From positions 434,001 through 498,000 of the forward strand of contig NZ_VZOV01000002.1 of assembly GCF_008801915.1 (NCBI RefSeq): a stretch of 64,000 bases of DNA, written 5' to 3'. This DNA comes from Cupriavidus gilardii (GTDB lineage: Bacteria; Pseudomonadota; Gammaproteobacteria; Burkholderiales; Burkholderiaceae). Under the pieces are notes generated by a model, which saw nothing but the letters and a program-made list of their open reading frames with translations, made no database searches and was not told the origin of the DNA. Both the position numbers and the translations under genes were made by a program. Shown piece by piece: positions 2,777 to 24,819 of this stretch (position 1 is its first letter; the number at the start of each line of letters is the position of its first letter).

Positions 2777-3826
2777 CTAGAAGTTGTTGGCCTGGCGCGG
2801 CACCGACAGCACAGCGGCGAGGGCCTTGTCGTCGGCCTGCGCCAGCACGGCCGCCGCGCGCCGCTTTCCGGCTTCGATCATGGCGGCACGGCGCCCCGGG
2901 TCGCGATGCATCTGCAGGATCGCCGTGCGTGCCTCCTCCAGACGGTCGAACGAGACGGTGGCATCGGCGCCGACCTCGCTCGCGGCAGTACCGGAGCGCA
3001 CGAAGGTCGGCACGCCCAGATGCATGGCCTCGAGCACGGGCACGCAAAACCCTTCGTGCTGGCTGACGGACAGCATGGCGCCGGCGCGGTCGAAGCGCGC
3101 GAACAGGCTTTCGTCATCGATCATCCCGGTGATCTCGACGTGCTCGGCCACGCCGCATTGCGCCGCGCGCTCGCTCAGGAAAGCGAGATAGACGCCGTTG
3201 GGCGCGCTGCCGACGATTTCAAGCTTGGCGTCGACACCGCTTTCCCGGACCATCGCCAGGATCTCGATCGCATCCTCGACCCGCTTGTGCGGAACGACCC
3301 GTCCCACCACGAGCAGCGTCAATGGGCCGGTGCGGTCGGCTCGCCCGGCAGGGACATGCCGGAACAGCGGCATATCCGGCCATACCGGCGGAATCACCAG
3401 AATCTCGTCGGCCCGCAGATGCGGCGCGAGCGATGCCGCAGTCAGCCGGGAATTGGCCATCACCAGATCGAACTGCCGCAGCAGCGGATACTGCTCCAGC
3501 GAGCGTGCGCACAGATCCGCGGTGACGGGCTCGAATTCGCGCAGCAGCTCTGGCTCCGTCACGCCGTGGAAGTAGCACAGTTTGCGATTTCCCAGCGCGA
3601 GCAGGCGCTCGAGCATCGGGTCGTAAATCGAATAGCTGACCAGCAGCGTATCTTGCGGCTGAATCTGCTCGAACAGCATGTCCAGCGGCTCGACGTCGCC
3701 CGTGAAGTGTTTCGCGCAGGCGCGCGCCGGGATGCCCAGTCGCTCGGCGGCGCGGGCAATACCGAGGCAGTGATTGCCCACGGCGTCGCCGATGTGGATG
3801 TCCGGTGCGGCGATGAATAGCGTCAT
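2777..3826 (-). CDS. Glycosyltransferase family 4 protein
   Basis: A 349-residue GT4-type glycosyltransferase. It begins MTLFIAAPDIHIGDAVGNH. The hinge has LLVVGRVVPHKRVEDAIE, the usual opening of the second Rossmann lobe with the phosphate-binding K-R. The donor motif is EGFCVPVLEAMHLGVPTF (EX7E intact). The ATG at 3824-3826 overlaps the stop of the preceding giant glycosyltransferase gene as ATGA, which rules out the much longer open frame to 4306. It ends 12 nt before the next TTG start. It probably adds one sugar of the repeat unit, with unknown donor. Confidence 0.85.
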   Translation of the reverse strand: MTLFIAAPDIHIGDAVGNHCLGIARAAERLGIPARACAKHFTGDVEPLDMLFEQIQPQDTLLVSYSIYDPMLERLLALGNRKLCYFHGVTEPELLREFEPVTADLCARSLEQYPLLRQFDLVMANSRLTAASLAPHLRADEILVIPPVWPDMPLFRHVPAGRADRTGPLTLLVVGRVVPHKRVEDAIEILAMVRESGVDAKLEIVGSAPNGVYLAFLSERAAQCGVAEHVEITGMIDDESLFARFDRAGAMLSVSQHEGFCVPVLEAMHLGVPTFVRSGTAASEVGADATVSFDRLEEARTAILQMHRDPGRRAAMIEAGKRRAAAVLAQADDKALAAVLSVPRQANNF

Positions 3827-6800
3827 GCGCCCTCCTTGCTCGCTGCGTTCAGTTGCTGCAGCCGTTCGAGATAGTTGCGCCCCACCGCTTCCGGCGAATA
3901 GTGGGCCAGCACGAAGTGCTTGCCCGCCAGCGCACGCTGCCGGCGCTCGCCTTCGTCCTCGACACAGCGCCGCATCTGCGACGCCGCCGACTCGACGTCG
4001 GCATCCCACCAATGCTGACCGTCCGCGAATGCATACTCGCCGGCACCAACTGCGATGGCTTCGCCACCGACCATGAAGGCCGTGGTGTCGTTGGTAAAGT
4101 CCGTGTTGCCCGAGAACGCCGATACGATTACCGGCTTCTCCAGCAGCATGGCTTCGGCGATATTGCGGCCAAAGCCCTCGGCACGATGCAGCGACACGAA
4201 GCAATCGCAGACGGATTGCAGCCCGATCACCGCTTCGCGCGCAATGGCTTCGGAGATGATGGAGACACGCGGATCGTCGCGGCACAGCGCCAGCACATCG
4301 TCCCATTGGCTCGGCGCACTGCCCATGTTCATCGTCTTGAACAGCAGGTGAACACCGCCGGTGCCGGGCGGGAACGCCCGCTGGAACGCCTTGATCACCG
4401 CCAGCGGATTCTTGCGATGGACGCTGGAATTGCCGTCCAGGATATTGAGGAAGACGAACGCGTCCTCAGGCAGGCCGAACTCTGCCCTGGTGTAGGCACG
4501 GCTCAACGGCGGCAACGCGACTGCCATCGGCATGACAAGCACTGGCTTGTCGGTGGCACCGCGCATTGCCTCGGCGGTGAAACGGGTACTCGACCAGATT
4601 TCGTCGACGAGTTCCAGCGCCAGCTCCATGCCGCGGGGGTAAGCCGGCAACTCCCACTGCCAGCAGCCGATGTTGTAGCGGTCGCCGAACAGTTTTTCGC
4701 CGGTGGCGCCCAGCAGCCGGATCGTCTCGTAATGGGGCAGAAACACGAGATTGGTGTTGTACAGCGGCGCGTCCACCTCATAGGCACGCAGAGACAGGTC
4801 CTGCTGGCGTGCGCCGATCGCCAGCGGGATAGCGGGCACGCACAGGTCCATATCGACGTGCCGCAGCGCCAGCGATGCCATTCTGACGTCCTCGCCGATC
4901 CCCAGTTCGCCGCGCCCGAAGCCCACGATATTGACGCCCCCGCGCAGGAACTTGCCGGTTGTCCCGCCGTGCGGCGGACGCCGGATTTCATGCGTCGGCG
5001 GCTCTTCGTCCTCGATATGCAGGCGCAGCTCGTACTTGCCGAAGTTGAACAGCCACAAGTTCAGCGCCAGGCGGCCTTCGGCCGTGCCGGTGTCGAACGC
5101 GTCCCGCAGGTCGGACCGTTGGGCATAGGCCGCTGCGGCGAGCGGATGCACTACGTCGCGCTCGTTGCCGGGCTGCGTCGGGTCGGAGATGCCGAGTGTT
5201 GCGTCGGTGGGCAGCAGCGCGCGGGGAACCGCGCCGCGCAGCAGTTGCTCGCTCCACCATGCCACCAGTTCACCGCGGCCCTCAGCCTGCTCCAGGGCCT
5301 TGTCGGTACCCGGCCCGCCGGCCAGCGCCGTGTACAGCGCCCGCATCGCCCGCGTAATGGGAACCTGCTGGTCCTGCGTCACGGTGGCGTCGGGCTGCTG
5401 CAGCTGGTCTCGGGAGATCAGCTGGGCCAGAAACGCGTTGCCCGGCACCTCGCGAATCCACCACGAGACAAAGGCCGCGCGCCCTTCCCTGTCCGCCAGA
5501 TCGGCAAATTCGCGCAGATCGTCGCGGGCAGCGTGCAAGGCCTGCATGCCCCGCGTAATCGGCAGAGGCGCATCCTGCGCGATATCGCGCGCCAGCTCAT
5601 GATAGAACGCGATTGGCAGGAAGCCGTCGAATGCCGGTGTTCCGGCGCCCTCGCGGATCCACCATTGGATCAGCTTGCCCCTGCCTTCGGGCGTGGCCAG
5701 ATCGATCTGGTCGCGCAGATCCGTGCGCGCCTTGCAGACGGCATGCAGGCCCTTGGTAATGGGCAGAAGTGCGTCCTGCACGATCGCCGGGTCGACGGCC
5801 GCATACTCCTCAGGCCGCACGATGCAGATGGGTTGGGCTTCGTGGCGGCCGTCCAGCACCCACCACGACACGAGCCGCTCGCGCCCTTCGCGCGTGGCGG
5901 TATCCATGTCCCGCAAGTCCTGCCGCGCTACCCTGAGTGCCAGCAAACCGCGCGTCAGCGGAATGGCGGCATCCTGCTGGACCTGAGTGCACACCTCCGC
6001 GTACAGCGCCGCGGGCATGCACGTCCTCAGCGAAGGATCGTGGATCCCCTCGAGCATCCACCAGGAAAGTAGCGTACGCCGCCCGGCCTCGGTCGACAGA
6101 TCCGCCTGCTCGCGCAAATCGTCGCGAGCCTCGCATAGCGCGTGCAAGCCGCAGGTGATGGGCAGGGGCTGGTCCTGCACCACGGTTTCGTCGACGCGCG
6201 CGTACATGTCGTCGCGCATGAAGCCGACGTAGCGCGCATCGCGCAGTCCTTCCAGCAACCACCATGACACCAGACCGTGCCTGCCGCCGCGGGTGGCCAG
6301 ATCGAACGAGGCACGCAGATCGTCGCGCGCAAGATAGATGGCATGCAGGCCGCGCGTCAGCGGCAGCCAGCCGTCCTGCGGCAGCGTGGTATCGGGGCGC
6401 GCCAGCCAGTCGCGCTGTTCGCCATCGATCGCGACGCCCTGGTTCAGGTGGATGGCGGCGCAGTGCAGCGGATCGTCGAGATCGAACTGGGACCGCAGCA
6501 CACGATTGCCCAGCCACAGCGCCTCGAGCACCGGAGTGCGGCCGAACGGCGTCTCGCTCTTCTGCCGCCGCTGGAACAGCGTCGCCAGACTGCGGTAATG
6601 CCGATGGTCGGAGAGATCCAGGCTGCGCTCGACGATGGGGTTGTCGAACAGATACCGGTTGCGTTCCTGCACCTGCTGGATTTCGTCCGGGATGCTGCCG
6701 GCGTCCTGCTCGAGCCCACGGGAATGCAGCCACGTATAGTCGACAATGCGAGCGCCGGTCTCGCGCAGCCGCATCGACAGCGCATGTTCGTCGACTATCG

Positions 6801-7476
6801 AGATTGCCTTCGCCTGAAAGCGCTGCAGGTTCTGCGGCGACAGTTCGAACACCGAATGCCATTTGCCGTGCGGCAGACCATCGCCGGTCAGCCATTCGAG
6901 CAGATAGGACTGGTAGTTCGCCGACAAGGGCGCGTCTTCACGGAAGGGGCGGTCGGACGAAGGCGCGAACAGCGCCTCCGCGCCAAACCGGCCGACGAAG
7001 CTGCCAAGCTTGCGAATGCGCTCGGGGACCGCAATCAGGAACTTGGAACAGCCCCACGTCTGGAAACTGCGTCCGAACTGCCGCACTGCGTCGGGATAGG
7101 CATCGATATGCGCCAGCACGACATCGTCGTGGCTCGCCGCATAGTCGAACATCTGCCGATTGATGTACGGATAGAAGCCGTTGTACTCGTTCTCGAACGC
7201 CGACGTCACGATATGTACGAGATCGTACCCGTCCAGCAAAGCGGGAAAGCGCGCCAGCGCGGTGTCCCAGCCGCTGAATTCGCGGCGCGAGTTGTCGCCG
7301 CCGATCATGACGATGTTCGGACCGAGGCTGACCGTCAGGTCCGTGGGCAGCGCCGTGTCGATCAGGACCGCATCGTAGTCGAGCCCTTCGATGCGCTGGT
7401 ACAGCTGGCACAGCCGCTTGAATGCGCCCTGGTAGTCGGCATCGCCGTAGCGGACGAACAAGGTAAGCAGCTTCAT
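3823..7476 (-). CDS. Giant glycosyltransferase with seven internal WW repeats
   Basis: A 1217-residue, three-part protein. Residues 1-300 form an N-terminal domain I cannot place securely; it may be a sugar-transferase or nucleotide-sugar fold. Residues 371-821 hold about seven tandem repeats of ~67 residues, each with the pattern PITRGLHAL..ARDDLR..xDLAT.EGR..LVSWW.LEG. Residues 845-1217 are a GT4-type glycosyltransferase, with GFGRGELGIGEDVR at the donor loop and HRAEGFGRNIAEAM as the EX7E motif (E1100, E1108). The ATG at 7474-7476 overlaps the previous stop as ATGA. It is far longer than ordinary GT4 enzymes (350-420 residues). The repeats may act as a scaffold or length-measuring spacer, but that is inference. 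Confidence 0.82.
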   Translation of the reverse strand: MKLLTLFVRYGDADYQGAFKRLCQLYQRIEGLDYDAVLIDTALPTDLTVSLGPNIVMIGGDNSRREFSGWDTALARFPALLDGYDLVHIVTSAFENEYNGFYPYINRQMFDYAASHDDVVLAHIDAYPDAVRQFGRSFQTWGCSKFLIAVPERIRKLGSFVGRFGAEALFAPSSDRPFREDAPLSANYQSYLLEWLTGDGLPHGKWHSVFELSPQNLQRFQAKAISIVDEHALSMRLRETGARIVDYTWLHSRGLEQDAGSIPDEIQQVQERNRYLFDNPIVERSLDLSDHRHYRSLATLFQRRQKSETPFGRTPVLEALWLGNRVLRSQFDLDDPLHCAAIHLNQGVAIDGEQRDWLARPDTTLPQDGWLPLTRGLHAIYLARDDLRASFDLATRGGRHGLVSWWLLEGLRDARYVGFMRDDMYARVDETVVQDQPLPITCGLHALCEARDDLREQADLSTEAGRRTLLSWWMLEGIHDPSLRTCMPAALYAEVCTQVQQDAAIPLTRGLLALRVARQDLRDMDTATREGRERLVSWWVLDGRHEAQPICIVRPEEYAAVDPAIVQDALLPITKGLHAVCKARTDLRDQIDLATPEGRGKLIQWWIREGAGTPAFDGFLPIAFYHELARDIAQDAPLPITRGMQALHAARDDLREFADLADREGRAAFVSWWIREVPGNAFLAQLISRDQLQQPDATVTQDQQVPITRAMRALYTALAGGPGTDKALEQAEGRGELVAWWSEQLLRGAVPRALLPTDATLGISDPTQPGNERDVVHPLAAAAYAQRSDLRDAFDTGTAEGRLALNLWLFNFGKYELRLHIEDEEPPTHEIRRPPHGGTTGKFLRGGVNIVGFGRGELGIGEDVRMASLALRHVDMDLCVPAIPLAIGARQQDLSLRAYEVDAPLYNTNLVFLPHYETIRLLGATGEKLFGDRYNIGCWQWELPAYPRGMELALELVDEIWSSTRFTAEAMRGATDKPVLVMPMAVALPPLSRAYTRAEFGLPEDAFVFLNILDGNSSVHRKNPLAVIKAFQRAFPPGTGGVHLLFKTMNMGSAPSQWDDVLALCRDDPRVSIISEAIAREAVIGLQSVCDCFVSLHRAEGFGRNIAEAMLLEKPVIVSAFSGNTDFTNDTTAFMVGGEAIAVGAGEYAFADGQHWWDADVESAASQMRRCVEDEGERRQRALAGKHFVLAHYSPEAVGRNYLERLQQLNAASKEGA
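5014..6366 (-). repeat. Seven in-frame ~200-bp repeats inside the giant glycosyltransferase gene
   Basis: Units start at residues 371, 438, 505, 571, 638, 705 and about 776 of the 1217-residue protein, so the period is 66-67 residues except for a longer sixth unit. Each has PITRG or a variant, then ARDDLR, DLATxEGR and a Trp-Trp pair at 405, 472, 538, 605, 672 and 740. The seventh keeps RSDLRDAFDTGTAEGR but has LWLF in place of SWW. A weaker eighth unit may precede them at residues 312-351. The units differ clearly at protein level, so the amplification is old. Similar RPDLxxAF-EGRxxFLxW modules occur in other large bacterial glycosyltransferases, as I recall the family. Confidence 0.9.
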
Positions 7477-9419
7477 TCTTCCATCTCCACTTCGAAGATG
7501 ACCTTGTTCTGCGCCGCATTGGCCCAACCCGCGCGCTCCACGTCGAACTGATCGATCCGATAGAAGAACTCCAGCCGCTGCAGGCAGCGCCCGGCATCCG
7601 CATCGCGCAGCGATGCGTCCACCAGCGCGAGCACTTCGCGGGCAGCCGCCTCCCAACCGAAGACCTGGGCGGGCCGTCGCGTCTGGGTCCGGCAATTCGT
7701 CCAGTAGTCCTTGCGCTCCAGCACCTCGCTGACGGCACTCAGCAATTCGGTCCGCCGCGAGAACGGCACGATGCCATCGACAGGACTGACGCGCGTCCGT
7801 ATCTCGTCAATCAGCTGGCTTTGCCGCGCGATCACCGGCTTGCCGAACGACAGCGCCTTCAGCACGGGAAGACCGAATCCTTCATAGAACGACGGGAACA
7901 CCAGGCACGCGCATTCGCGGAACAGCGTATCGACCGCTTCGTTGGACAACATGCCCGATGGCAACTGCTCGACGTTGGGGTATTGCTCCCCGACCTCGCC
8001 GAGAACGCGGATCCGTGCCTCCGGGAAGCCCGCAGCAAGCACGCGCACCGCTTCGTGCAGGCCCTTGTGGTAGTACTGGTTGCCGACCACCAGCACATAC
8101 GGCTCGCCGTCCGGCGCGTCGCCCCCTGTTGGCGGTGCATGGTATTCAGCCGGATCCAGCGAGCAGTAAGAGATGGCGCTCGGCACATCGCGCGATGCCG
8201 GGAAGCGCTCGTGAAACGCATTGCGCGTATAGCCGCTGTTGAAGACGAAGCCGTCGGCATAGCTGGCAGCCGCCCGCCATACGCCATCGATATGCGGCAT
8301 GCGGATGTAATGGCAGTCCCAGGCGATGGCGTCCATGATCAGATACAGATTCACGGTCGACCGGCGCGCCTGGTCGCGCAGTTCGCTGAAGCTCCACGGT
8401 TGCGACAGACGGATGGCCGCATCGAAGATGGCATCGTCGGGCATCGTGTGGATCAGGGCATCCGGCATGGTCCGATCCAAACCGTGGAACTGCGCGGCCT
8501 CGGGAAGCACCCAGAAACGCGGGGCCACCGACACACTTTCGGCGAGCCGGACAATCGGATCAAGCAGCGAAAGGATGTGCTGCGCGGTGCCGTTGTAGCC
8601 GGGCGCGAGGTTGCGGATATCGAACAATACGGTACGCATTGCTTTCGGCTTGAGCCGCTGCCACAGCAGCGCCTCCCAGCGCTGCTCCGGGAACTCCGCA
8701 CGGCGCGCAATGGCGCGCGCATAGTCGGCCGCCCGTTCGATCGACGGCGGCTGCGCCGCACCGGGATAGGGCGCGGACTCGGCGGCAAAGAACAACGCGC
8801 GGTTGCAGACCACGGCACTGTATCCGCGGCGGTTGGCACGGATGAACAGCCGCCCGAGCGCATCGCCCAGCCGCTCGTCCTTGCCGTCGAGCCGGCCAAA
8901 GTGGTAAAGCATGTCGCCCCGCACGAGTACAGGCGCGCTAGTGACAATGCCACCGCCCCAGCGCGACGGCAGGGCCTGCAGAAACGGCGCGAGGGGTTCG
9001 CGGCTGGCCAGGGCCTCGTCCCCGGACTGGCGCGGGATGGGGGCCGAGCCGCCGATATTGGTGCGCGGCACGGCAAAGCCATACAGCGGATCGGCTTCCA
9101 GCGCCTCCAGCAGCCGCGCGACCGCCTCCCCGTCGAATGCGTATTCGGGCGCGGTGAACAGTACCGGCGTGCCGGCTTCCGCCAGCGGATGCACGACGCG
9201 GTTCAACCGTGCGATGTAGTCGCCGGCGTCCCGCACCGGGATCGTCTCGATCATCGGATCGTCAGAGATCGGCGCGGCGCCCGCGGGCACGAAGACATGG
9301 ACGCGCTCGACGAGCTGCCGCAGCGGCGCATCGGCCAGTGCGCCATGGCATGCAACGGCCTGCTGCTCGGGACGCGCGGCTTCGGGCAGGGTAATGACGA
9401 TGGCGATCTTGCTGGTCAA
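7473..9419 (-). CDS. Two-domain glycosyltransferase (N-terminal GT-A-like, C-terminal GT4)
   Basis: A 648-residue protein. The first ~210 residues begin KIAIVITLPEAARPEQQ and contain FTAPEYAFDGEAVARLLEAL and APVLVRGDMLYHFGRLDG, suggesting a GT-A-like or degenerate GT2 fold. The remainder is GT4-like, with LVVGNQYYHKGLHEAVRVLA opening the second lobe and EGFGLPVLKALSFGKPVI as donor motif. In that motif the second Glu of EX7E is replaced by Lys. The start is a TTG at 9417-9419 overlapping the previous stop as TTGA, with AGGTG just upstream; an in-frame GTG at 9450-9452 is the alternative. Probably bifunctional, or a glycosyltransferase with a regulatory N-domain. Confidence 0.78.
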   Translation of the reverse strand: MTSKIAIVITLPEAARPEQQAVACHGALADAPLRQLVERVHVFVPAGAAPISDDPMIETIPVRDAGDYIARLNRVVHPLAEAGTPVLFTAPEYAFDGEAVARLLEALEADPLYGFAVPRTNIGGSAPIPRQSGDEALASREPLAPFLQALPSRWGGGIVTSAPVLVRGDMLYHFGRLDGKDERLGDALGRLFIRANRRGYSAVVCNRALFFAAESAPYPGAAQPPSIERAADYARAIARRAEFPEQRWEALLWQRLKPKAMRTVLFDIRNLAPGYNGTAQHILSLLDPIVRLAESVSVAPRFWVLPEAAQFHGLDRTMPDALIHTMPDDAIFDAAIRLSQPWSFSELRDQARRSTVNLYLIMDAIAWDCHYIRMPHIDGVWRAAASYADGFVFNSGYTRNAFHERFPASRDVPSAISYCSLDPAEYHAPPTGGDAPDGEPYVLVVGNQYYHKGLHEAVRVLAAGFPEARIRVLGEVGEQYPNVEQLPSGMLSNEAVDTLFRECACLVFPSFYEGFGLPVLKALSFGKPVIARQSQLIDEIRTRVSPVDGIVPFSRRTELLSAVSEVLERKDYWTNCRTQTRRPAQVFGWEAAAREVLALVDASLRDADAGRCLQRLEFFYRIDQFDVERAGWANAAQNKVIFEVEMEE

Positions 9420-10672
9420 GCTGGCACCTGTTCGATGTCGTGGTTGCGGCACGCGTCAATCCGGCCGGTCAGGGCGGAATACACGCTTTCGGAACCGAAA
9501 TGTTGTTCGATGAAGGCGTGGGCGGCCTGCTGCAGCGCGACGCGCTCCGGCTCCCGCGCCAGCAGCGCTACGATCTCTCGTGCAAACGCGACCGCGTCGT
9601 GGACGATCACCGCCGGCACGTCGCCGAGCTCCCGGAGTCCGTCCGCTGCGGAAGGCCAGGCCACATGCGCCTTGCCCCATGCCAGCGCCTCGATGGTCTT
9701 GATCTTCAGGCCGGTACCGACGCGGCAGGGATTGACCACGACCGCAGCCTGCTCGTACTCCGCCTCGAGGCTCTCGACAAAGCCGAGCAGCGATACGGTC
9801 GGATCGTCGCAATGCACGAACTGGCACACCTTGCCGATCACGCGAAGACGCGCGCCGGGACGCGCGGCACGTACCAGCGGCCACGTATAGTCGAGGAAGT
9901 CCTGCGTTCCCTTGACGTTGAATTCGTTGCTCGATGCGACGATCAGCACCTGGTCGGGCACCACCGCGGCGGGATCGCCATGATGGATATCCAGATCGAA
10001 CGAGGTCAGCAGCGCCTCGACTTCCGGCACCAATTGCCGCAGCTCATCCTGTTCGGCCTTCTGGATCGCCAGCACGATGTCGGCGCGGCGGAGCAAGGCG
10101 CTTTCCTGTGCCTCGGTCAGGCTCAGGCTGTAGTTCTTGATCCCATACTGTTCTACGGTCTTCTGCTTGCGGCAGAACAGGTCATGGGCGTCGATGATCT
10201 TCAGCGCATCCCCGCATTCCGGCAATTCGAGGATACGGCTCATGAAGACGTATTGGGCGATCACCACGTCCGGACGGACCGCGGCCACGATCGGTGCCAC
10301 TTCGGCGGCAAACCAGTCGGGGCAGAAGCCGTCCTGGATGCGGGACAGTTCGGCGTCGGCAAAGTCGGTGTCGACCTGCACCGGCTTGGCCATGGTGCCT
10401 CCGGGCCGCGGCAGCACGATACGATTGTCGAACACATGCAGCTCGTCGACGACGTCGCGCAGACCGAGGATGCACTGATTGCTGACTTCGGTGTCGCCCA
10501 GCGGCTTCAGCACCAGCGTGACCGCATATCCCTTGCGCCGGAACCACGACAGCATCTTGTAGATGCGGATCTCGTTGCCCGCCGCGGGCGGATACGGCAT
10601 CACATGGGTGACCATCAGGACGCGCGGCTTGGCGCTGCTCTGCGGGGTGGAAGCGAAACGGGGTTTCATCAT
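9416..10672 (-). CDS. Glycosyltransferase family 4 protein
   Basis: A 418-residue GT4-type enzyme. The N-terminus reads KPRVLMVTHVMPYPPAAGNE, with the usual proline-glycine donor loop after the first strand. The second lobe opens with QVLIVASSNEFNVKGTQDFL and the donor region is VGTGLKIKTIEALAWGK, a common variant in which Gly-rich VGTGLKIK replaces EGFG. The start is the first of two adjacent ATGs at 10670-10672, 52 nt after the preceding stop, one of the few real gaps in this operon. A longer frame to 10921 would overlap the upstream gene and is rejected. Confidence 0.82.
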   Translation of the reverse strand: MMKPRFASTPQSSAKPRVLMVTHVMPYPPAAGNEIRIYKMLSWFRRKGYAVTLVLKPLGDTEVSNQCILGLRDVVDELHVFDNRIVLPRPGGTMAKPVQVDTDFADAELSRIQDGFCPDWFAAEVAPIVAAVRPDVVIAQYVFMSRILELPECGDALKIIDAHDLFCRKQKTVEQYGIKNYSLSLTEAQESALLRRADIVLAIQKAEQDELRQLVPEVEALLTSFDLDIHHGDPAAVVPDQVLIVASSNEFNVKGTQDFLDYTWPLVRAARPGARLRVIGKVCQFVHCDDPTVSLLGFVESLEAEYEQAAVVVNPCRVGTGLKIKTIEALAWGKAHVAWPSAADGLRELGDVPAVIVHDAVAFAREIVALLAREPERVALQQAAHAFIEQHFGSESVYSALTGRIDACRNHDIEQVPA

Positions 10673-12970: not shown

Positions 12971-14078
12971 CGAAGTCCTCCATCGGCCGACCCAGCAGGC
13001 TCGCGACCACGCGCGCCGACGCGCGACCGTCGCCATATGGATTGGCACGATCGCGCAACGCAACGACACGCTGCGGGGCATCGAGCCAGTCCGCAACCGC
13101 CGCGCTGATCGACCGCGGGTCCTGGCCCGCCAGCGTCGCAAACCCGGCATCGACGCCTTCACGCCGCTCGGTATGGCTGCGCATCACGACCACCGGCACG
13201 CCGAAGGTCGGCGCCTCTTCCTGGATGCCGCCCGAATCGCTGACGACCAGGTCGCTGCGGCTGATCAGATAGAGACTGGTCGGATAGTCGACCGGCTCGA
13301 CCAGCGACAGATTCGGAACGCCGCCCAGTTCACGCAGCACCGGCCCGCGCACCGCCGGATTCAGGTGCACGGGGAAGATCCAGCGGTGGTGCGGATAGCG
13401 GCGGCACAGCTCGCGCAGTGCGGTACAGATACCGAGCATCACGTCGCCGAAGTTTTCGCGCCGATGGCACGTGACCAGGACCTGCGGACCGTCATGGCGC
13501 AGCTCGGGGGCCAGCTCCGGTATCCGGCCCGCCCAGCCGGCGCGCACCATTTCGATGGCGTCCACGACGGTGTTGCCGGTCGTGACGATCGTATCGGCGC
13601 GGACGCCTTCGTTCAGCAGGTTGTCCCGTGCCGATCTGGTCGGCGCGAAGTTGCGGGCGGCGATGCGGCCCAGCAGGCTCCGGTTGGCTTCCTCGGGAAA
13701 GGGACTGGCCAGATCGCCAGTGCGCAGGCCCGCCTCGACGTGCCCGACGCGTACGCCGCGATGGAACGCCGCCAGGCCCGCGCAAAAGGCCGTGGTGGTA
13801 TCGCCCTGCACCAGCACCCAGTCGGGCCGCTCGGCGGCGATGGCGTCGTCCAGCTCGGCCAGCAGGCGTGATGCCAGACCATTCAGCGATTGGCCGGGCC
13901 GCATGCAATCGAGGCCAATATCCGGCGACAGCGCAAAATACGACATGGCCTGCTCGAGCATCTCGCGGTGCTGACCGCTGCTGCAGACCGTGACGTCGAC
14001 CGCTTCGCGCAGGGCCGCGACGACAGGCGCGAGCTTGATCACCTCGGGGCGGGTGCCCATCACGACCATGACTTTCAT
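12963..14078 (-). CDS. wecB: UDP-N-acetylglucosamine 2-epimerase (non-hydrolysing)
   Basis: A 371-residue enzyme that interconverts UDP-GlcNAc and UDP-ManNAc in the cytoplasm. It begins MKVMVVMGTRPEVIKLAP, the family signature, and carries HVEAGLRTGD, VTCHRRENFGD (catalytic His and Glu) and VVSDSGGIQEEAP for UDP binding. The ATG at 14076-14078 overlaps the deacetylase stop as ATGA. Length and motifs agree with the family. Its product could be used directly as ManNAc or oxidised to ManNAcA, but no wecC-type dehydrogenase lies in the window. With the deacetylase just upstream it hints at an aminosugar-containing polysaccharide. Confidence 0.95.
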   Translation of the reverse strand: MKVMVVMGTRPEVIKLAPVVAALREAVDVTVCSSGQHREMLEQAMSYFALSPDIGLDCMRPGQSLNGLASRLLAELDDAIAAERPDWVLVQGDTTTAFCAGLAAFHRGVRVGHVEAGLRTGDLASPFPEEANRSLLGRIAARNFAPTRSARDNLLNEGVRADTIVTTGNTVVDAIEMVRAGWAGRIPELAPELRHDGPQVLVTCHRRENFGDVMLGICTALRELCRRYPHHRWIFPVHLNPAVRGPVLRELGGVPNLSLVEPVDYPTSLYLISRSDLVVSDSGGIQEEAPTFGVPVVVMRSHTERREGVDAGFATLAGQDPRSISAAVADWLDAPQRVVALRDRANPYGDGRASARVVASLLGRPMEDFGG

Positions 14079-17144: not shown

Positions 17145-17933
17145 TTAGCCGACCGAGCTGGCAGCCAGGCCGGCAACCGCCGTTGCCGCGTCCTCCTCCC
17201 TGGCGGGGGCTGCGGCGACCACTGGCTCGTCCGAGACGATCCGGCCGTGTTCCATCTTGATCTGCCGATTGCAGACTCGCGCCACCAGCTTCGGGTCATG
17301 CGACGCCAGCACCAGGATCGAAGCCTTGCCGACCAGCTCGTCCAGGCGCTTGGCCGCCTTCAGGCTGAAGTCGGCGTCGCCCACGCTGAGCCATTCGTCC
17401 ATGATCAGGATGTCGGCCTCGACACTGGTCGAGATGGCGAAAGCCAGCCGCAGCATCATCCCGCTCGAGTACGTGCGAACGGGCAGGTTCAGGTAATCGC
17501 CAAGTTCGCTGAACTCGGCGATCTCGTCGATCTTGCTTCGAATGCGCGCGGGCCGCAGGCCGTCGAGAATGCCACGCAGATAGATGTTCTCGAATCCGGT
17601 CGCGTCGGGGTCCAGTCCCATCGACACGTCAAGCAGCGAGGCGATCTTGCCACGCGTATGCAGTTCGCCGCTGACCGGCGCATAGACGCCCGACAGCGTG
17701 CGCAACAGCGTGGTCTTGCCGGAGCCGTTGTGGCCCACCAGTGCGACCCGCTCACCATCCGCGAAGCGAAAGCTGAGCCGATCGAGCGCGGTCACGATCG
17801 CGTGCTTGCCGGCATCCTGCCCGATCCGGCCGCCCGTGGTCAGGTTCAGCACGGCCTTCTTCAGAGAACGGTGCGAGTTCTCGTAGATCGGAAAGGCGAC
17901 GGAGATGTCTTTTGCAACGATGGATGAGGTCAC
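17145..17933 (-). CDS. wzt: Polysaccharide ABC transporter ATP-binding protein (Wzt type)
   Basis: A 262-residue ATPase of the polysaccharide/polyol phosphate exporter class. Walker A is GHNGSGKT (67-74), the signature is YSSGMMLRLAFA (from 155), Walker B is ILIMDE (175-180), and the H-loop is in LASHD. With the permease upstream it exports the finished undecaprenyl-linked glycan across the inner membrane. The start is a GTG at 17931-17933, 4 nt after the permease stop. It lacks the ~150-residue C-terminal carbohydrate-binding domain of Wzt proteins that read a capped chain end; only a short Ala-rich tail follows. Confidence 0.93.
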   Translation of the reverse strand: MTSSIVAKDISVAFPIYENSHRSLKKAVLNLTTGGRIGQDAGKHAIVTALDRLSFRFADGERVALVGHNGSGKTTLLRTLSGVYAPVSGELHTRGKIASLLDVSMGLDPDATGFENIYLRGILDGLRPARIRSKIDEIAEFSELGDYLNLPVRTYSSGMMLRLAFAISTSVEADILIMDEWLSVGDADFSLKAAKRLDELVGKASILVLASHDPKLVARVCNRQIKMEHGRIVSDEPVVAAAPAREEDAATAVAGLAASSVG

Positions 17934-17937
17934 GGTG

Positions 17938-18768
17938 TTACAGCCAGTATGGAACGCGATTGCGGTATCGGCTCATCAGATACTGCGCGAACGCGAATCC
18001 CAGAATCAGCAGACCGAACGACCAGGCCCAGGATTCCCAAAGCATCGGCCTGCCGGTAATCGGCGCGCGGATTGTCTCAATGAGGTGATACAGCGGGTTC
18101 ATGTGGGCAATCCAGGAGCGATCCTTCAGGATCTCCGGCATCCACATCACGGGCGTGAAGAAGAAAATCACCTGAACCAGGTTCGTCACGATCGGCGGAA
18201 TATCGCGGAAGCGGGCGCACAGCACGCCAAGAGCGACGCCGACCCAGATGCCGTGCAGCAGCAGCATGGCCAGGCCAATCGGCACGAGCAGGAATTCCCA
18301 TGTCGGCCAATGACCGAAGCCGACCATCAGGATGATCACCACCGGCAGGCTGTGCAGCAGGATGACGAAATTCCGCCACGCAATGCGGCACACATGGACG
18401 GTCAGCGGGATGCGTATCTGCTTGATCAGATAGGCCGACCCGATGAACGCGGTACACCCTTCGTTGGCGACCGAGGCCAGGTATTGCCAAACCACCAGGC
18501 CGATGGCCAGGTACGGCAGATAGTCCGAGATTTCCTGCTGCAGCAGCGTCGAGTAAAGCGCCCCCAGCACGATCACCATGATTGCCGTGCTCAACGTGAA
18601 CCAGAACGGCCCGATCACCGAGCGCCGATAGCGCTGGCGGATGTCATGCCAGCCCAGCGTGCCCCAGATGCGGGACGCACGCATGCCCACCAGCATGTCG
18701 TCGCTATGACTATGCCGGGTGATGTCGTCGGTGTCGTAGCTGTGTTCAGCTGCTGCGGTTTCCGCCAT
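17938..18768 (-). CDS. wzm: Polysaccharide ABC transporter permease (Wzm type)
   Basis: A 276-residue ABC-2 type permease. After a polar N-terminus, the segment TLGWHDIRQRYRRSVIGPFW is the conserved amphipathic interface helix region of Wzm/KpsM/TagG proteins, followed by about six membrane segments (for example AIMVIVLGALYS and QVIFFFTPVMWMPEIL, the latter typical of the family). It pairs with the ATPase immediately downstream. The ATG at 18766-18768 lies 1 nt after the manC stop; a GTG 9 nt further upstream is an alternative. This makes the pathway ABC-transporter dependent rather than Wzx/Wzy dependent; no wzx or wzy gene is visible. Confidence 0.92.
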   Translation of the reverse strand: MAETAAAEHSYDTDDITRHSHSDDMLVGMRASRIWGTLGWHDIRQRYRRSVIGPFWFTLSTAIMVIVLGALYSTLLQQEISDYLPYLAIGLVVWQYLASVANEGCTAFIGSAYLIKQIRIPLTVHVCRIAWRNFVILLHSLPVVIILMVGFGHWPTWEFLLVPIGLAMLLLHGIWVGVALGVLCARFRDIPPIVTNLVQVIFFFTPVMWMPEILKDRSWIAHMNPLYHLIETIRAPITGRPMLWESWAWSFGLLILGFAFAQYLMSRYRNRVPYWL

Positions 18769-18769
18769 G

Positions 18770-20185
18770 TCACGCACGTCCGTAAATGTCCTCGAAGCGG
18801 ACGATATCGTCCTCGCCGAGATACTCGCCGCTCTGCACTTCGATCATGACAAGATCGACCACGCCCGGATTCTCGAGCCGGTGCTTGTGGCCAGCCGGGA
18901 TATAGGTCGATTCGTTGATTGCGACGAAGAATTCCTTGTCGCCGTTGACAACCTTCGCCATGCCGCTGACGACGATCCAGTGTTCGCTGCGATGGTGATG
19001 CATCTGCAGGCTCAGGCTGGCGCCGGGCTTCACTTCGATACGCTTGATCTTGAAGCGCGGGCCTTCTTCCAGCACCGTATAGGTGCCCCAGGGCCGGTGC
19101 ACGGTCCGATGCAGGCGGTGCGCCTCATGGCCTTGCGCCTTGAGCTTGGCGAACACATGCTTGACGTCCTGCGCCCGTTCCCGGTTGGCGATCAGCAGCG
19201 CATCGGGGGTGTCGATCACGATCAGGCCTTCCACGCCGACCGCGCCGATCAACCGGTCGCGGCTCACCAGATAGCAGTCGCTGACGTCATGCAACAGCGC
19301 CTCGCCTTCGACGCGGTTGCCCTTGTCGTCGGCCTTCGACAGTTCGCTCAGCGCGGCCCAGGACCCAATGTCGCTCCAGCCGATCGAGCACGGCACCACC
19401 GCGGCGCGCGTGCATTTTTCCATCACGGCGTAGTCGATCGAGTCTTCCGGCACCGCGGCGAAGCTCTCCGACGCCAGCTCCACCTGAGTCCAACCCTTCG
19501 CGGTAGCGACACGCGACCTGGCAAGGCTGGCCTCGGTAGCCTCCAGGATATCCGGCGCGTGTTCCTTCAGCTCGCGCAGCATGGCGCCCGCGGTGAAGCA
19601 GAACATGCCGGAATTCCACAGGAATCGCTGCGACGCCAGATATTCGCGCGCCTTTTCCAGCGACGGCTTTTCGACGAAACGCAGTACCTTATTGCCATCG
19701 GCCTCGATATAGCCATAACCGGTTTCGGGAGATTCCGGATGGATGCCAAAGGTCACGATGCGGCCCTCGCGCGCCAGCGCTTCGGCCTGCTGAACCGCAT
19801 CGCGGAACGCGTCCTGATCGGCGATCAGATGATCGGCGGCCAGCACCAGCATCACGGTATCGTCACCATGGGTCTGCGCCACGCGCAGCGATGCTGCCGC
19901 AACCGCGGCGGCGGTGTTCCGGCCGAGCGGCTCAAGGATGTAGGAGGTAGCGCAATGTTGTTCATTGACGGCACGGAATTCGTCCTCCGTCTTGAAGAAC
20001 AGCTCCCGGTTCGTGACCGTCAGGATTTCCGCCACGCCCGGCAGAGCCGCCGCGCGCAAGAATGCTTTCTGCAGCAGGCTCTGACCATCCGACAGACGGA
20101 TGAACGGCTTCGGATGCAGTTCACGCGACACGGGCCACAGCCGGGAACCGGCGCCACCGCACAGGATGATGGGTACCAAACTCAC
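18770..20185 (-). CDS. manC: Mannose-1-phosphate guanylyltransferase / mannose-6-phosphate isomerase
   Basis: A 471-residue bifunctional enzyme making GDP-mannose. The N-terminal nucleotidyltransferase starts MSLVPIILCGGAGSRLWPVS, with the pyrophosphorylase signature and the FVEKP motif. The C-terminal cupin has PWGTYTVLEEGPRFKIKRI and LQMHHHRSEHWIVVSG, the phosphomannose isomerase metal site. The start is GTG (20183-20185), preceded by GAGGAA. It follows rfbC after about 100 nt and abuts the exporter genes. It indicates mannose, or a GDP-mannose-derived sugar such as D-rhamnose or fucose, in the polymer. No GDP-mannose dehydratase is visible here. Confidence 0.95.
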   Translation of the reverse strand: MSLVPIILCGGAGSRLWPVSRELHPKPFIRLSDGQSLLQKAFLRAAALPGVAEILTVTNRELFFKTEDEFRAVNEQHCATSYILEPLGRNTAAAVAAASLRVAQTHGDDTVMLVLAADHLIADQDAFRDAVQQAEALAREGRIVTFGIHPESPETGYGYIEADGNKVLRFVEKPSLEKAREYLASQRFLWNSGMFCFTAGAMLRELKEHAPDILEATEASLARSRVATAKGWTQVELASESFAAVPEDSIDYAVMEKCTRAAVVPCSIGWSDIGSWAALSELSKADDKGNRVEGEALLHDVSDCYLVSRDRLIGAVGVEGLIVIDTPDALLIANRERAQDVKHVFAKLKAQGHEAHRLHRTVHRPWGTYTVLEEGPRFKIKRIEVKPGASLSLQMHHHRSEHWIVVSGMAKVVNGDKEFFVAINESTYIPAGHKHRLENPGVVDLVMIEVQSGEYLGEDDIVRFEDIYGRA

Positions 20186-20289
20186 ATGTTCCTCACAATG
20201 CGCGTCAAACTTTGCGCTTGGTGTTGCGTTTCAAATGTCGACGTTGGATCTGGCCGCAAGGCACATTCCCGTCGGAATCCGGCATCGAA

Positions 20290-20877
20290 TCAGGCGCGCC
20301 CTGGCCCCTGCAGCGATGGATCGTCACTCGAGAACAGGTCCGCTTCGGCAAGCGGCTTGCCCGCGGCGTCCTTCGCGGCCAGCATCGGCTCCCCATCGAT
20401 CGGCCAGTCGATACCCAGGGCCGGGTCGTTCCACAACAAGCTGCGCTCGTATTCGGGATACCAATAATCGGTAGTCTTGTACAGGAACTCGGCATGGTCG
20501 GACGTCACCAGGAATCCATGCGCGAAGCCTTCGGGCACCCATAACTGGCGCTTGTTCTCCGCCGACAGCGTGACGCCCACCGCCTTGCCGAAGGTCGGCG
20601 AGCCCTTGCGGATATCCACCGCCACATCGAACACCTCGCCCGCCACCACGCGGACCAGCTTGCCCTGGGGATGCTGGATCTGATAGTGAAGACCGCGCAG
20701 CACACCACGCGCCGAGCGCGAATGGTTGTCCTGCACGAAGACGCGGTTCAAGCCGGTCGCCTCGGCAAACTGCCTGGAATTAAAGCTTTCGAAGAAAAAA
20801 CCGCGTTGATCGCCGAATACCTTCGGCTCCAGGATCAACACCTCGGGGATCTCGGTGCGAATGACGTTCAGGCTCAT
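20290..20877 (-). CDS. rfbC: dTDP-4-dehydrorhamnose 3,5-epimerase
   Basis: A 195-residue RmlC enzyme, third step of dTDP-L-rhamnose synthesis. The start [20 protein letters not shown] is standard. [21 protein letters not shown] (catalytic His) and [20 protein letters not shown] are the family signatures. Its ATG (20875-20877) overlaps the rfbA stop as ATGA, so an alternative frame up to 20973 is rejected. Length is slightly above the usual ~183 because of a short C-terminal tail. It acts in the cytoplasm with the three neighbouring enzymes. Confidence 0.96.
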
Positions 20878-21752
20878 TTGATGGCCTCCGACAGGATCTG
20901 CATCAGATACGCACCATAGCCGTTCTTCGACAGCGGACGCGCCAGCTCGGCAACCTGATCGGCGGAGATCCATTTATTGCGGAACGCGATTTCCTCGGGA
21001 CACGCGACCATCAGTCCCTGCCGGCTCTGCAGCGTCGCGATGAAGCTGGCTGCCTCCAGCAGCGAATCGTGCGTGCCGGTGTCCAGCCAGGCATAGCCGC
21101 GGCCCATGATCTCGACTTCGAGTTGTGCCATCGCGAGGTAACGCTTGTTGACGTCGGTGATCTCGAGCTCGCCGCGCGCGGATGGCTTGATGTCGGCCGC
21201 GATATCGCAGACCTGGTTGTCGTAGAAATAAAGCCCCGTCACCGCATAGTTGGAGCGCGGCTTCAGCGGCTTTTCCTCCAGCGACATCGCACGGAAGTTT
21301 TCGTCGAACTCGACCACGCCGTAGCGCTCCGGATCATGCACGTGATAGGCGAACACCGTCGCGCCGTCTTCCTTCGCGCACGCCCGCGTCAGTTGGCTGA
21401 CGAGATCATGGCCGTGGAAGATGTTGTCGCCCAGGATCAGGGTCGAAGGATCGTTGCCGATGAAATCGCGGCCGATCAGGAACGCCTGGGCCAGCCCATC
21501 GGGCGAAGGCTGAACCGCGTATTGGAGATTCAGTCCCCATTTGCTGCCATCGCCCAGCATTTCAGCGAAGCGCGGGGTGTCTTCCGGCGTCGATATAACG
21601 AGGATGTCACGAATCCCCGCCAACATGAGCGTCGACAGGGGATAGTAGATCATCGGCTTGTCGTAGACAGGCAGCAGCTGCTTCGACACCGAGCGGGTGA
21701 TCGGATAAAGGCGGGTGCCGGAGCCCCCGGCCAGGATGATGCCCTTGCGCAT
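20874..21752 (-). CDS. rfbA: Glucose-1-phosphate thymidylyltransferase
   Basis: A 292-residue RmlA enzyme, first step of dTDP-L-rhamnose synthesis (glucose-1-phosphate + dTTP to dTDP-glucose). It begins [20 protein letters not shown] (nucleotide-binding signature) and has [27 protein letters not shown] and [18 protein letters not shown], all diagnostic. The ATG at 21750-21752 lies 10 nt after the rfbD stop. Length matches the family. Gene order B-D-A-C is common in Proteobacteria. The enzyme is normally feedback-inhibited by dTDP-rhamnose, a property of the family. Confidence 0.97.
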
Positions 21753-21762
21753 GGCGAACCAC

Positions 21763-22680
21763 TCAGGAAAGGATCTGGTCGAGCAGGTGGGCAATGCCCT
21801 GCTGCCAGTCCGGAAGATGAATGCCGAACGTATCGCGCAGCTTGCTGGTATCCAGACGCGAATTGGCCGGCCTTGGCGCGGGCAGCGGATACTCGTCGGA
21901 CGCAATCGCGGCCACCCGGTCGGACGCGACCTTCAGCGCAATGCCCCTGGTTTCCGCGTAGCGCAGCACGGCCGTCGCATAGCCATGCCAACTGGTTTCG
22001 CCCGCGGCGGCGAGGTGATAGATCCCTCCGGCAAAGCCCGCTCGATCGCCGTGCAGCCAGTGGCGCGCCACGATCTGGGCCGTCACGTCGGCGATCAGCG
22101 ACGCCGTGGTCGGAGCGCCGAACTGGTCGGCGATGACACGCAGTGCGTCTCGTTCCGACGCGAGCCGCAGCATCGTCTTGGCGAAGTTGGCGCCGTGCGC
22201 GCCGGCCACCCAGCAGGTCCGCAACACCAGTGCGTTGGCACCCGTTGCAGCGATGGCCTGCTCCCCGGCAAGCTTGCTCTTGCCGTAGACCGATTGCGGG
22301 TCGACCGGGTCAGTTTCGACATAGGGGCTCGTCTTGCGGCCGTCGAACACGTAATCGGTCGAGTAATGGACCAGCAGGCCGCCGAGTTCGCGTACCTCCT
22401 CGGCCAGTACGCCGGGGGCCACACCGTTGATCGCGTGAGCCAGCTCGGCCTCGCTTTCGGCCTTGTCCACCGCGGTATAGGCGGCGGGATTGACGACGAT
22501 GTCCGGGCGGAGCTCCCGCACGACGCGACGAAGCTGCCCGGGGTCGGCCAGATCGCAGGCATTGCGGTCCAGCGCGACGACGCGGCCTAGCGGCGCCAGG
22601 CTTCGGCGCAGTTCGAAACCAACCTGGCCATTGCTTCCAGTGACGAGAAGGGTCGGGACACGGGAGGTTTCACGCCGCAT
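21763..22680 (-). CDS. rfbD: dTDP-4-dehydrorhamnose reductase
   Basis: A 305-residue RmlD short-chain dehydrogenase, last step of dTDP-L-rhamnose synthesis. The NADPH-binding motif is [15 protein letters not shown] (normally GxxGQxG). [11 protein letters not shown] and [15 protein letters not shown] supply the catalytic Thr/Ser-Tyr-Lys set (YGKSK). The ATG at 22678-22680 overlaps the end of rfbB by 11 nt. Length and motif order are normal for the family. Confidence 0.96.
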
Positions 22681-23734
22681 ACTGCTTCGCCACCCAATTT
22701 CGATATTCCCCGGACATCACGTCCTGCACCCAGGCCTGGTTGTCCAGATACCACTGCACCGTCTTGCGCAGCCCGGTCTCGAAGGTCTCCGCCGGCTTCC
22801 AGCCGAGCTCGCGCTCGAGCTTGCGGGCGTCGATCGCATAGCGCCGGTCGTGGCCGGGGCGGTCCTTGACGAAAGTAATCTGGTCCCGATAGGAGCCCGA
22901 AGCCTTCGGCTTCAGTTCGTCCAGCAGGTCGCACAGCGTGTGCACCACGTCCAGATTGGTCTTCTCGTTCCAGCCGCCGACGTTGTACGTCTCGCCGAGC
23001 CGTCCGCGCGCCAGCACCTCGCGGATCGCGGCGCAGTGGTCGCCCACATACAGCCAGTCGCGCACGTTCAGGCCGTCGCCGTAGACCGGCAGCGGCTTGC
23101 CGCCGAGCGCGTTGGCGATCATCAGCGGGATCAGCTTCTCGGGGAAGTGATACGGCCCGTAGTTGTTAGAGCAATTGGTCGTCAGGACCGGCAGGCCGTA
23201 GGTGTGGTGGTAGGCGCGGACCAGATGGTCGGAACCCGCCTTCGAGGCCGAGTATGGGCTGTTGGGCGCGTAGGCCGTCGTCTCGGAAAACGGCGGATCG
23301 TTCGGACCGAGCGAGCCGAACACCTCGTCGGTCGACACGTGCAGGAAGCGGAAGGCGGCCTTGCGGGTGTCGTCGAGCCCGCTCCAGTAGGCTCGCACCG
23401 CCTCGAGCAGCGTGAAGGTGCCGACGATATTGGTCTGGATAAACTCGCCCGGACCATGGATCGAGCGGTCGACGTGGCTTTCGGCGGCAAAGTGCAGAAC
23501 AGCGCGGGGCTGGTACTCGGCCAGCAGCCGGTCCAGCGCGGCGCGGTCACAGATGTCGGTGCGCGAGAAAACGTGACGCGGATTGCCCTCCAGCGAGGCA
23601 AGCGTCTTCAGGTTGCCGGCGTACGTGAGCTTGTCGACATTGACGACGCTGTCGGCGTCGGCATTGCCAAGCCAGTTCAAGACGAAATTGGCACCAATGA
23701 AACCGGCGCCCCCTGTCACGAGGATGTGCGGCAA
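22670..23734 (-). CDS. rfbB: dTDP-glucose 4,6-dehydratase, first gene of the operon
   Basis: A 354-residue RmlB enzyme, second step of dTDP-L-rhamnose synthesis. It opens with [18 protein letters not shown] (NAD-binding) and has [12 protein letters not shown] and [15 protein letters not shown] (catalytic Tyr-x3-Lys). The frame begins with TTG at 23732-23734, preceded by GGGAGAAAGGGG, a good ribosome-binding site; there is no usable ATG closer to the family's N-terminus (residue 1 is followed by PHILVTGG). It is the promoter-proximal gene of a ~23-kb operon, so a weak TTG start here does not control its neighbours' transcription. Confidence 0.96.
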
Positions 23735-23970: not shown

Positions 23971-24819
23971 ATGCCCCATTCCGTGGTGCCCGCCCCTTAC
24001 CCCTACGCCATCGGCGACCTGCAAGGTTGCTGCCCCTCCCTGGAACAACTTGTCACCAAAATCCCCGACGATGCGCCACTTCGCTTCGTCGGGGATCTGG
24101 TAAACCGCGGGCCGGCGTCACTGGAGACCTTGCGGAAGGTCCGTGCCATCGGCGCGCGAGCCGAGTCGGTGCTGGGCAACCACGATATCCATCTATTAGC
24201 GGTCGCCGCGGGCGTACGCAATCCGGGTTCGTCTGACACGCTCGATGCCATCCTCCAGGCGCCGGACCGCGAGGAGCTGCTGCACTGGCTGCGCCACCGG
24301 CCGCTGGCCGTCCATGAGAACGGCTTCCTGCTGATCCACGCCGGCGTGCTGCCCCAATGGACCGTCGAGCAGACGCTGGAGCTTGCCGGCGAAGTCGAGC
24401 GGAAGCTACAGGGACCGGACTGGAAAGCATTTCTCGCGGATATTTTTGGTAATGCGGCAAACCGCTGGCACGAGGGGCTGCGCGGCATCGAGCGGCACCG
24501 GGTCGTGATCAATGCGCTGACCCGGCTGCGCTTCTGTACCGCCGACGGGGTGATGGACTTCAAGACCAAGGAGGGATTGGGCAAGGCGCCCGATGGCTTC
24601 CTGCCCTGGTTCGATGTGCCGACACGCCGGACCTCCGATACCACGATCGTCTGCGGGCATTGGTCGACGCTGGGACTGGTGATGCGGCCCGACCTGATGG
24701 CGCTGGATACCGGCTGCGTCTGGGGCGGCCGCCTGACGGCCGCCCGTTTGGCGCCGGAGCCGGCCGACCGCGCGGTCATCCAGGTCGATTGCCCGCAATA
24801 TTGTGATCCTTTAGGCTGA
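23971..24819 (+). CDS. apaH: Symmetrical bis(5'-nucleosyl)-tetraphosphatase
   Basis: A 282-residue metallophosphatase that splits Ap4A symmetrically into two ADP. The metal-binding motifs are GDLQGC (residues 15-20), GDLVNRGP and LGNHDIHLL, and the C-terminus has CGHWSTLGL and [14 protein letters not shown]. Length agrees with E. coli ApaH (280). The ATG at 23971 follows a hairpin with a T-run and no clear ribosome-binding site, which is odd. It is divergent from the rhamnose genes and convergent with plsC. Role: clearance of dinucleoside polyphosphates in the cytoplasm. Confidence 0.95.

Follow-up and report, generated by a model that had tools for sequence, protein, structure and literature searches.

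A 1217-residue glycosyltransferase of Cupriavidus gilardii carries an array of seven helical modules and may act as an expandable scaffold in O-antigen assembly

Introduction

Both the cohesion of the transferases in cytoplasmic O-antigen and capsule assembly and the measurement of chain length have been worked out in a few enteric prototypes, some of them described in PMC11231755. Chain-length rulers are known in ABC-transporter-dependent O-antigen systems; those of the WbdD/WbbB type are described there as coiled coils whose far end bears a terminator, and the CBM-less O2a system is described as setting chain length by stoichiometry (PMC11231755).

Here we analyse a stretch of 64,000 nucleotides of Cupriavidus gilardii (the window), in which a large protein, called here P0001, was described by a first-pass annotation as a glycosyltransferase (GT) with a repeat array in its middle.

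Results

The gene encoding P0001 occupies 3823..7476 on the minus strand (an ORF of 1217 aa, ATG at 7476) and is situated in a Wzm/Wzt (ABC-transporter) O-antigen locus. A WecA-like initiator, the apaH flank, rml genes and wzm/wzt are all present. The minus strand carries Wzt (262 aa, 17145..17933), the O-antigen ABC exporter permease Wzm (17938..18777) and ManC with the dTDP-rhamnose genes (18770..23734; ManC, RmlA, RmlD and RmlB assigned by Pfam, RmlC by eye), and apaH, a known flank of Burkholderia O-antigen loci, lies on the plus strand at 23971..24819. Wzt shows the ABC domain only; among 25 of its 29 matches listed no other family exceeded its cut-off, and no C-terminal carbohydrate-binding extension was seen. 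Genes resembling wbiI/H/G, named by analogy, are found 0.7 to 5 kb past the left window edge. Two further genes of the cluster, both on the minus strand, encode a polysaccharide-deacetylase-like protein (14075-15637) and a relative of PaaK-like AMP-ligases (15634-17037; NCBIfam matches below cut-off, none in Pfam). A second polysaccharide cluster occupies the region about 7-12 kb beyond the left window edge (L139:7774-12830, plus), adjacent to the ABC-type cluster and on the opposite strand, and comprises a Bac_transf priming enzyme, a Wzx-like protein just below the Pfam cut-off and two GT4 genes.

Relatives of P0001 were collected by scanning one genome per species, which gave 139 confirmed places, the best 80 of which were kept; counts by species are not independent. 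Wzm was sought near 18 of these 80 loci, in 16 genomes that are largely Paraburkholderia and not independent, and lies at most 30 kb from the array-GT in 13 of the 16, compared to 0.91 expected. The exceptions are a Geobacter MAG (G736) with none on the contig, G746 with a match below cut-off, and Aromatoleum (G735), whose contig is too short to decide.

ATGA overlaps couple P0001 with a GT on either side, a GT4 upstream (7473..9452, minus) and a GT4 partner downstream (2777..3826, minus). A second upstream GT is encoded at 9416..10672 (minus). Homologues of both upstream GTs were detected in the same four of the 80 loci, when 5 kb flanks were searched at E up to 1e-20, and these four (L023, L024, L025 and L027) are the loci that carry the N-terminal domain of P0001. 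Both are also present in L103, on the Methylovirgula plasmid pHY1, where they adjoin the N-terminal domain encoded as a separate 287-aa hypothetical protein (L103:5995-6855). A homologue of the downstream GT is the next gene after the GT4 gene in 25 of the 80 loci, and 24 of these 25 GT4 genes are module-bearing. The window order from 11717 down to 142, GT-GT-GT-array-GT-GT-phosphatase-GT, is conserved in L023 and L024, and the neighbour genes are retained in part in Dechloromonas and a Geobacter MAG. In L025 and L027 both GTs preceding the array are retained, and a GT and the phosphatase come after it (in L027 also the last GT); the directly downstream GT was not found beside the array-GT in these two loci. 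The phosphatase is a histidine-phosphatase-family gene (1161-1799, minus) lying among the GTs, with homologues in the flanks of 27 of the 80 loci, and may be part of the pathway.

P0001 was first described as a 1217-residue protein with repeats between an N-terminal and a GT4 domain, a layout that was confirmed here by the ORF and by the Pfam scan. The GT4 domain (residues 841-1217; 3826..4956, minus) is the sole Pfam family above cut-off, with 28.5 bits for PF00534 (Glycos_transf_1) compared to the curated cut-off of 26.4. Residues E1100 and E1108 form an E-x7-E, the catalytic motif of GT4, and are invariant in the seven aligned rows. The N-terminal domain covers residues 1-300 (6577..7476, minus).

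The region between these domains is repetitive. P0001 matches itself at lags 67, 133, 200 and 267, and the best 40-residue self-match scored 139, whereas 300 shuffles gave a mean of 28.7 (sd 4.7) and a maximum of 45. The profile placed the repeat starts at residues 373, 440, 507, 573, 640, 707 and 780, the final copy running to 816, which are the same seven repeats of about 67 residues that had been assigned to residues 371-821. On the minus strand, repeats 1 to 5 correspond to residues 371-437 (6166..6366), 438-504 (5965..6165), 505-570 (5767..5964), 571-637 (5566..5766) and 638-704 (5365..5565), each supported by the profile and by AlphaFold2 helices. Repeat 6 (residues 705-777, its end placed by eye; 5146..5364) matches the profile with 10.7 bits and has lost the ARDDLR motif, and repeat 7 (residues 778-821; 5014..5145) matches it at 780-816. 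The seven are preceded by a degenerate eighth copy (residues 311-370, limits by eye; 6367..6546), detected by the profile at residues 316-338 with 4.4 bits and modelled with helices. Six of the seven repeats contain the Trp-Trp pair reported as conserved (at 405, 472, 538, 605, 672 and 740); the seventh has W-L instead. Similarly, the period said to be regular is 66-67 residues through copy 6 but 73 ahead of copy 7. A tandem array at the nucleotide level was rejected, since Tandem Repeats Finder detected none and returned a single unrelated 9-base row; the copies of P0001 have thus diverged.

To describe the fold of the array, AlphaFold2 was run on residues 301-840 with an alignment of 12 rows. 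The model is an all-helical solenoid (pLDDT 84, pTM 0.74) with the repeats as helical units, and an unfolded or low-complexity linker was discarded on the basis of the same pLDDT. The Trp pair sits within the longest helix of every modelled unit; the helices do not exceed 18 residues and are repeated, unlike an extended coiled coil. Over 40 aligned modules, the first Trp is invariant and the position following it holds W, Y or F in 34. The array is acidic, with a net charge of -19 over 540 residues.

No match to the module emerged from the libraries of families and structures that were searched. Foldseek comparison of the array model gave nothing at E<=0.001 either in the PDB, where the best matches were armadillo/HEAT-like and similar structures (E 0.11, TM ~0.15), or among viral models (best E 0.28). 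The module profile reached at best E 0.29 with PDB sequences, and the best Pfam match of the 40 modules was E 0.05, which is chance level. Even with an E limit of 1, the Pfam matches of the 40 modules include no TPR, HEAT, ARM or Sel1 family. Membership in one of these alpha-solenoid classes was rejected for want of a family or fold match, though a weak match does not imply a different fold. No carbohydrate-binding family was detected by Pfam on P0001 or on the 40 modules, and the module is named in no title or abstract start among the literature matches listed.

The N-terminal domain had been left unplaced and now has GT-A fold matches, which are weak. Its AlphaFold2 model is poor (pLDDT 58.9, 126 of 310 residues below 50), and Foldseek ranked GT-A enzymes at the top, namely ArnC (E 1.7e-4), PcManGT (9e-4) and GT6 (1.2e-3), with GalNAc-T2 also among the top matches, at a TM of about 0.3 (ArnC ~0.33). 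Invariant in six of six rows, H123-x-D125 comes after the modelled strand 119-122; it departs from the canonical DXD-like metal-binding motif of GT-A glycosyltransferases. The model thus points to a domain that is probably a second, GT-A-like transferase, and the fold matches are best treated as a lead rather than proof. In a class sample, two of 274 genomes matched this domain. One is the genome studied here; the second match, L105 (E 7e-4), was judged by eye to be an adenylate-cyclase-like frame and discarded as chance.

The repeats proved not to be peculiar to the giant protein. Modules are found in the GT4 frame of 77 of the best 80 relatives (of 139), in 1-11 copies, and two of the three module-free loci, L080 and L089, start at the edge of a contig and are possibly truncated. 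Among the module-bearing loci, the distance from the last module to the GT4 domain ranges from -15 to 206 residues (median 30). A few records of the 80 come from outside the Pseudomonadota, under names such as Desulfovibrio-like, Geobacter, Sporomusaceae and Silvibacterium. The distribution is patchy, as the module was detected in 11 of 398 genomes in a phylum-wide survey (own included), in 10 of 289 in a survey of another class (three shared with the phylum survey) and in 3 of 60 in a genus sample (own included). The module spans several bacterial phyla and occurs in few genomes.

Outside the genome studied here, the two surveys yielded 21 distinct module proteins; 20 have a GT4 and/or a GT8-like domain, a proportion to be read with the origin of the profile, which was built from GT4 relatives and leans the surveys towards glycosyltransferases. 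The architecture GT8-like/module/GT4 was observed in 4 of the 21, and a single protein, a 229-aa frame with two modules, consists of modules alone, although the survey loci are short and further domains may lie outside the view. The module is therefore a glycosyltransferase-associated unit that is not special to P0001. The GT8-like family often has one C-terminal module, either alone or fused to GT4 (L127-L138, L151-L164). The GT8-like label is itself weak, since PF01501 gave E 0.017, below cut-off, in one of four domains scanned alone, and LgtC gave E 0.23, so that none of the domains scanned has a Pfam match above cut-off; D-P-D is invariant in five aligned rows. The N-terminal domain of P0001 was not retained as a member of this family, as hhalign returned a probability of 0.2 of 100 with a thin N-terminal profile (Neff 2).

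In the genome studied here, a 322-aa frame on contig C1 (124-1092, minus; L140) carries two modules and a methyltransferase domain (21.6 bits compared to the Pfam cut-off of 21.2) which ends early and may be cut. By eye, this frame lies near a putative phage lysozyme.

Orthologues matching about residues 1-1209 of P0001, with an equivalent start position, are present in L023, L024, L025 and L027. The N-terminal domain is fused to the array in five proteins, which have 7 modules in the window, 8 in Burkholderia sp. D-99, 11 in P. caffeinitolerans, 3 in Dechloromonas and 3 in a Geobacter MAG; a sixth candidate, from Aromatoleum (L026), is cut by its own contig. Among the best 80 loci, 20 have at least six modules, and in 18 of these the N-terminal domain is missing and the array is near the N-terminus; Paraburkholderia relatives reach up to 10 modules without this domain.

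Tandem duplication has recently produced some of the inner copies. Repeats 5 and 6 of L024 are 89% identical in protein and 88.4% in DNA, repeats 1 and 2 of L025 88% and 89.1%, and repeats 1 and 2 of L026 80% and 82.8%. Repeat identity is restricted to these three pairs, confirmed at the DNA level, as the other comparisons allowed free end gaps and gave at least one spurious 100%. A tree was built from 66 repeats of ten proteins; it comes from a short alignment, leaves 31 of 63 inner branches open and has an unsettled bootstrap. One split (97/93) separates 30 repeats of Paraburkholderia-type and Rahnella proteins from 36 of the window and L023-L027, as if two repeat subfamilies had been expanded separately. 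The last repeats of the window, L023 and L024 cluster together (100/97), as do the next-to-last ones (99/99), which indicates that the end copies are orthologous in these three. Among related bacteria, the array has both grown and shrunk.

Discussion

We consider it rather likely that P0001 is a multi-module O-antigen GT whose array serves as an expandable scaffold or tether in a multi-enzyme complex. P0001 would belong to an ABC-transporter-dependent O-antigen assembly complex, with the C-terminal GT4 domain acting as a sugar transferase and the N-terminal domain probably as a second, GT-A-like one. The array between them, predicted to be an all-helical solenoid of glycosyltransferase-associated modules, would provide an expandable tether and a docking surface, keeping both active sites and the co-translated neighbour GTs, the candidate partners, near the lipid-linked chain as it grows at the membrane. 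A scaffold for neighbouring enzymes, one of the functions proposed by the first-pass annotation, fits because the gene stands in a GT operon within an ABC-transporter O-antigen locus, and its docking part is to be read as a prediction.

A broader proposal, unlikely as it stands, holds that the module represents a so far undescribed family of helical repeats in polysaccharide enzymes, whose copy number bacteria tune by tandem duplication, and that it forms an adjustable ruler or scaffold which sets the length or composition of the surface polysaccharide, replacing the coiled-coil ruler.

Ranking below that proposal is a doubtful one, namely a molecular ruler, akin to the chain-length spacer of the first-pass annotation, in which the array spaces two catalytic domains and O-antigen chain length is determined by the number of repeats, in the manner of the coiled coil of WbdD/WbbB. 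The locus is ABC-transporter dependent, there are precedents in such systems in the part of PMC11231755 cited above, and Wzt is of the short kind, with no glycan-reading domain seen. The repeat number also varies (3, 3, 7, 8 and 11) among proteins sharing the N-terminal and GT4 domains, with some inner repeats duplicated and end repeats that stayed. However, because long arrays occur without a distal domain to space, an intramolecular ruler is disfavoured as a general role. In addition, the known rulers, as described in that part of the source, are coiled coils with a far-end terminator, and P0001 has short modelled helices and no terminator identified, while the O2a system does with stoichiometry (PMC11231755).

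A lower probability still is given to a neutral accordion, in which a fold-stable linker expands through tandem duplication and the number of copies has no function. Recent duplicates with 83-89% DNA identity in three loci, and the separate sets formed by the repeats of the two subfamilies, are consistent with it. By contrast, diverged copies retain the motif, the window, L023 and L024 share end copies in corresponding positions, and at least one module stands ahead of GT4 in 77 of the 80 loci. The least probable reading is a glycan- or lipid-binding array, in which each Trp-Trp would form a weak aromatic site holding the chain or the membrane for processivity: the invariant first Trp and its mostly aromatic neighbour agree with it, and several copies would raise avidity, but the Trp pair lies inside the longest modelled helix, where it may rather be a packing core, the acidic charge disfavours membrane binding, and no carbohydrate-binding family was matched.

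The scaffold reading can be placed beside four described or detected systems. The GT8-like/module proteins and GT8-like/module/GT4 fusions of other Pseudomonadota share the module with P0001, and the fusions also have its GT4 subfamily and likewise hold the module between two GT domains; these proteins differ in having mostly one module, and their GT8-like family showed no profile similarity to the N-terminal domain of P0001. Regarding the Burkholderia O-antigen locus between apaH and ureG, compared by its description in part of PMC5462993, apaH, rml, wzm, wzt, GTs and wbiG/H/I-like genes occur in a similar arrangement, but an array-GT is not named in that part. The export system resembles that of K. 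pneumoniae O2a, as the top NCBIfam model of both Wzt and Wzm is the galactan exporter and Wzt shows the ABC domain only, although neither score reaches its equivalog cut-off (255.5 of 400 and 266.2 of 380 bits).

The fourth comparison is with WbdD/WbbB (K. pneumoniae O3, O5 and O12), as described in the same part of PMC11231755. The locus is likewise ABC-transporter-dependent, with Wzm and Wzt in the window, catalytic modules and a long helical spacer share one chain, and the GTs work as a complex, as they would for P0001. By contrast, no kinase, methyltransferase or other terminator was identified on the P0001 chain, whose distal N-terminal domain is GT-A-like at most, and its spacer is modelled as a tandem helical-repeat array and not as the coiled coil that defines those proteins, so that P0001 may work like a coiled-coil ruler without being a member of that class. 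A further difference is that the copy number of P0001-type proteins changes by whole modules; this countable array of 3 to 11 copies next to the same end domains offers a natural length series with which a scaffold can be set against a ruler.
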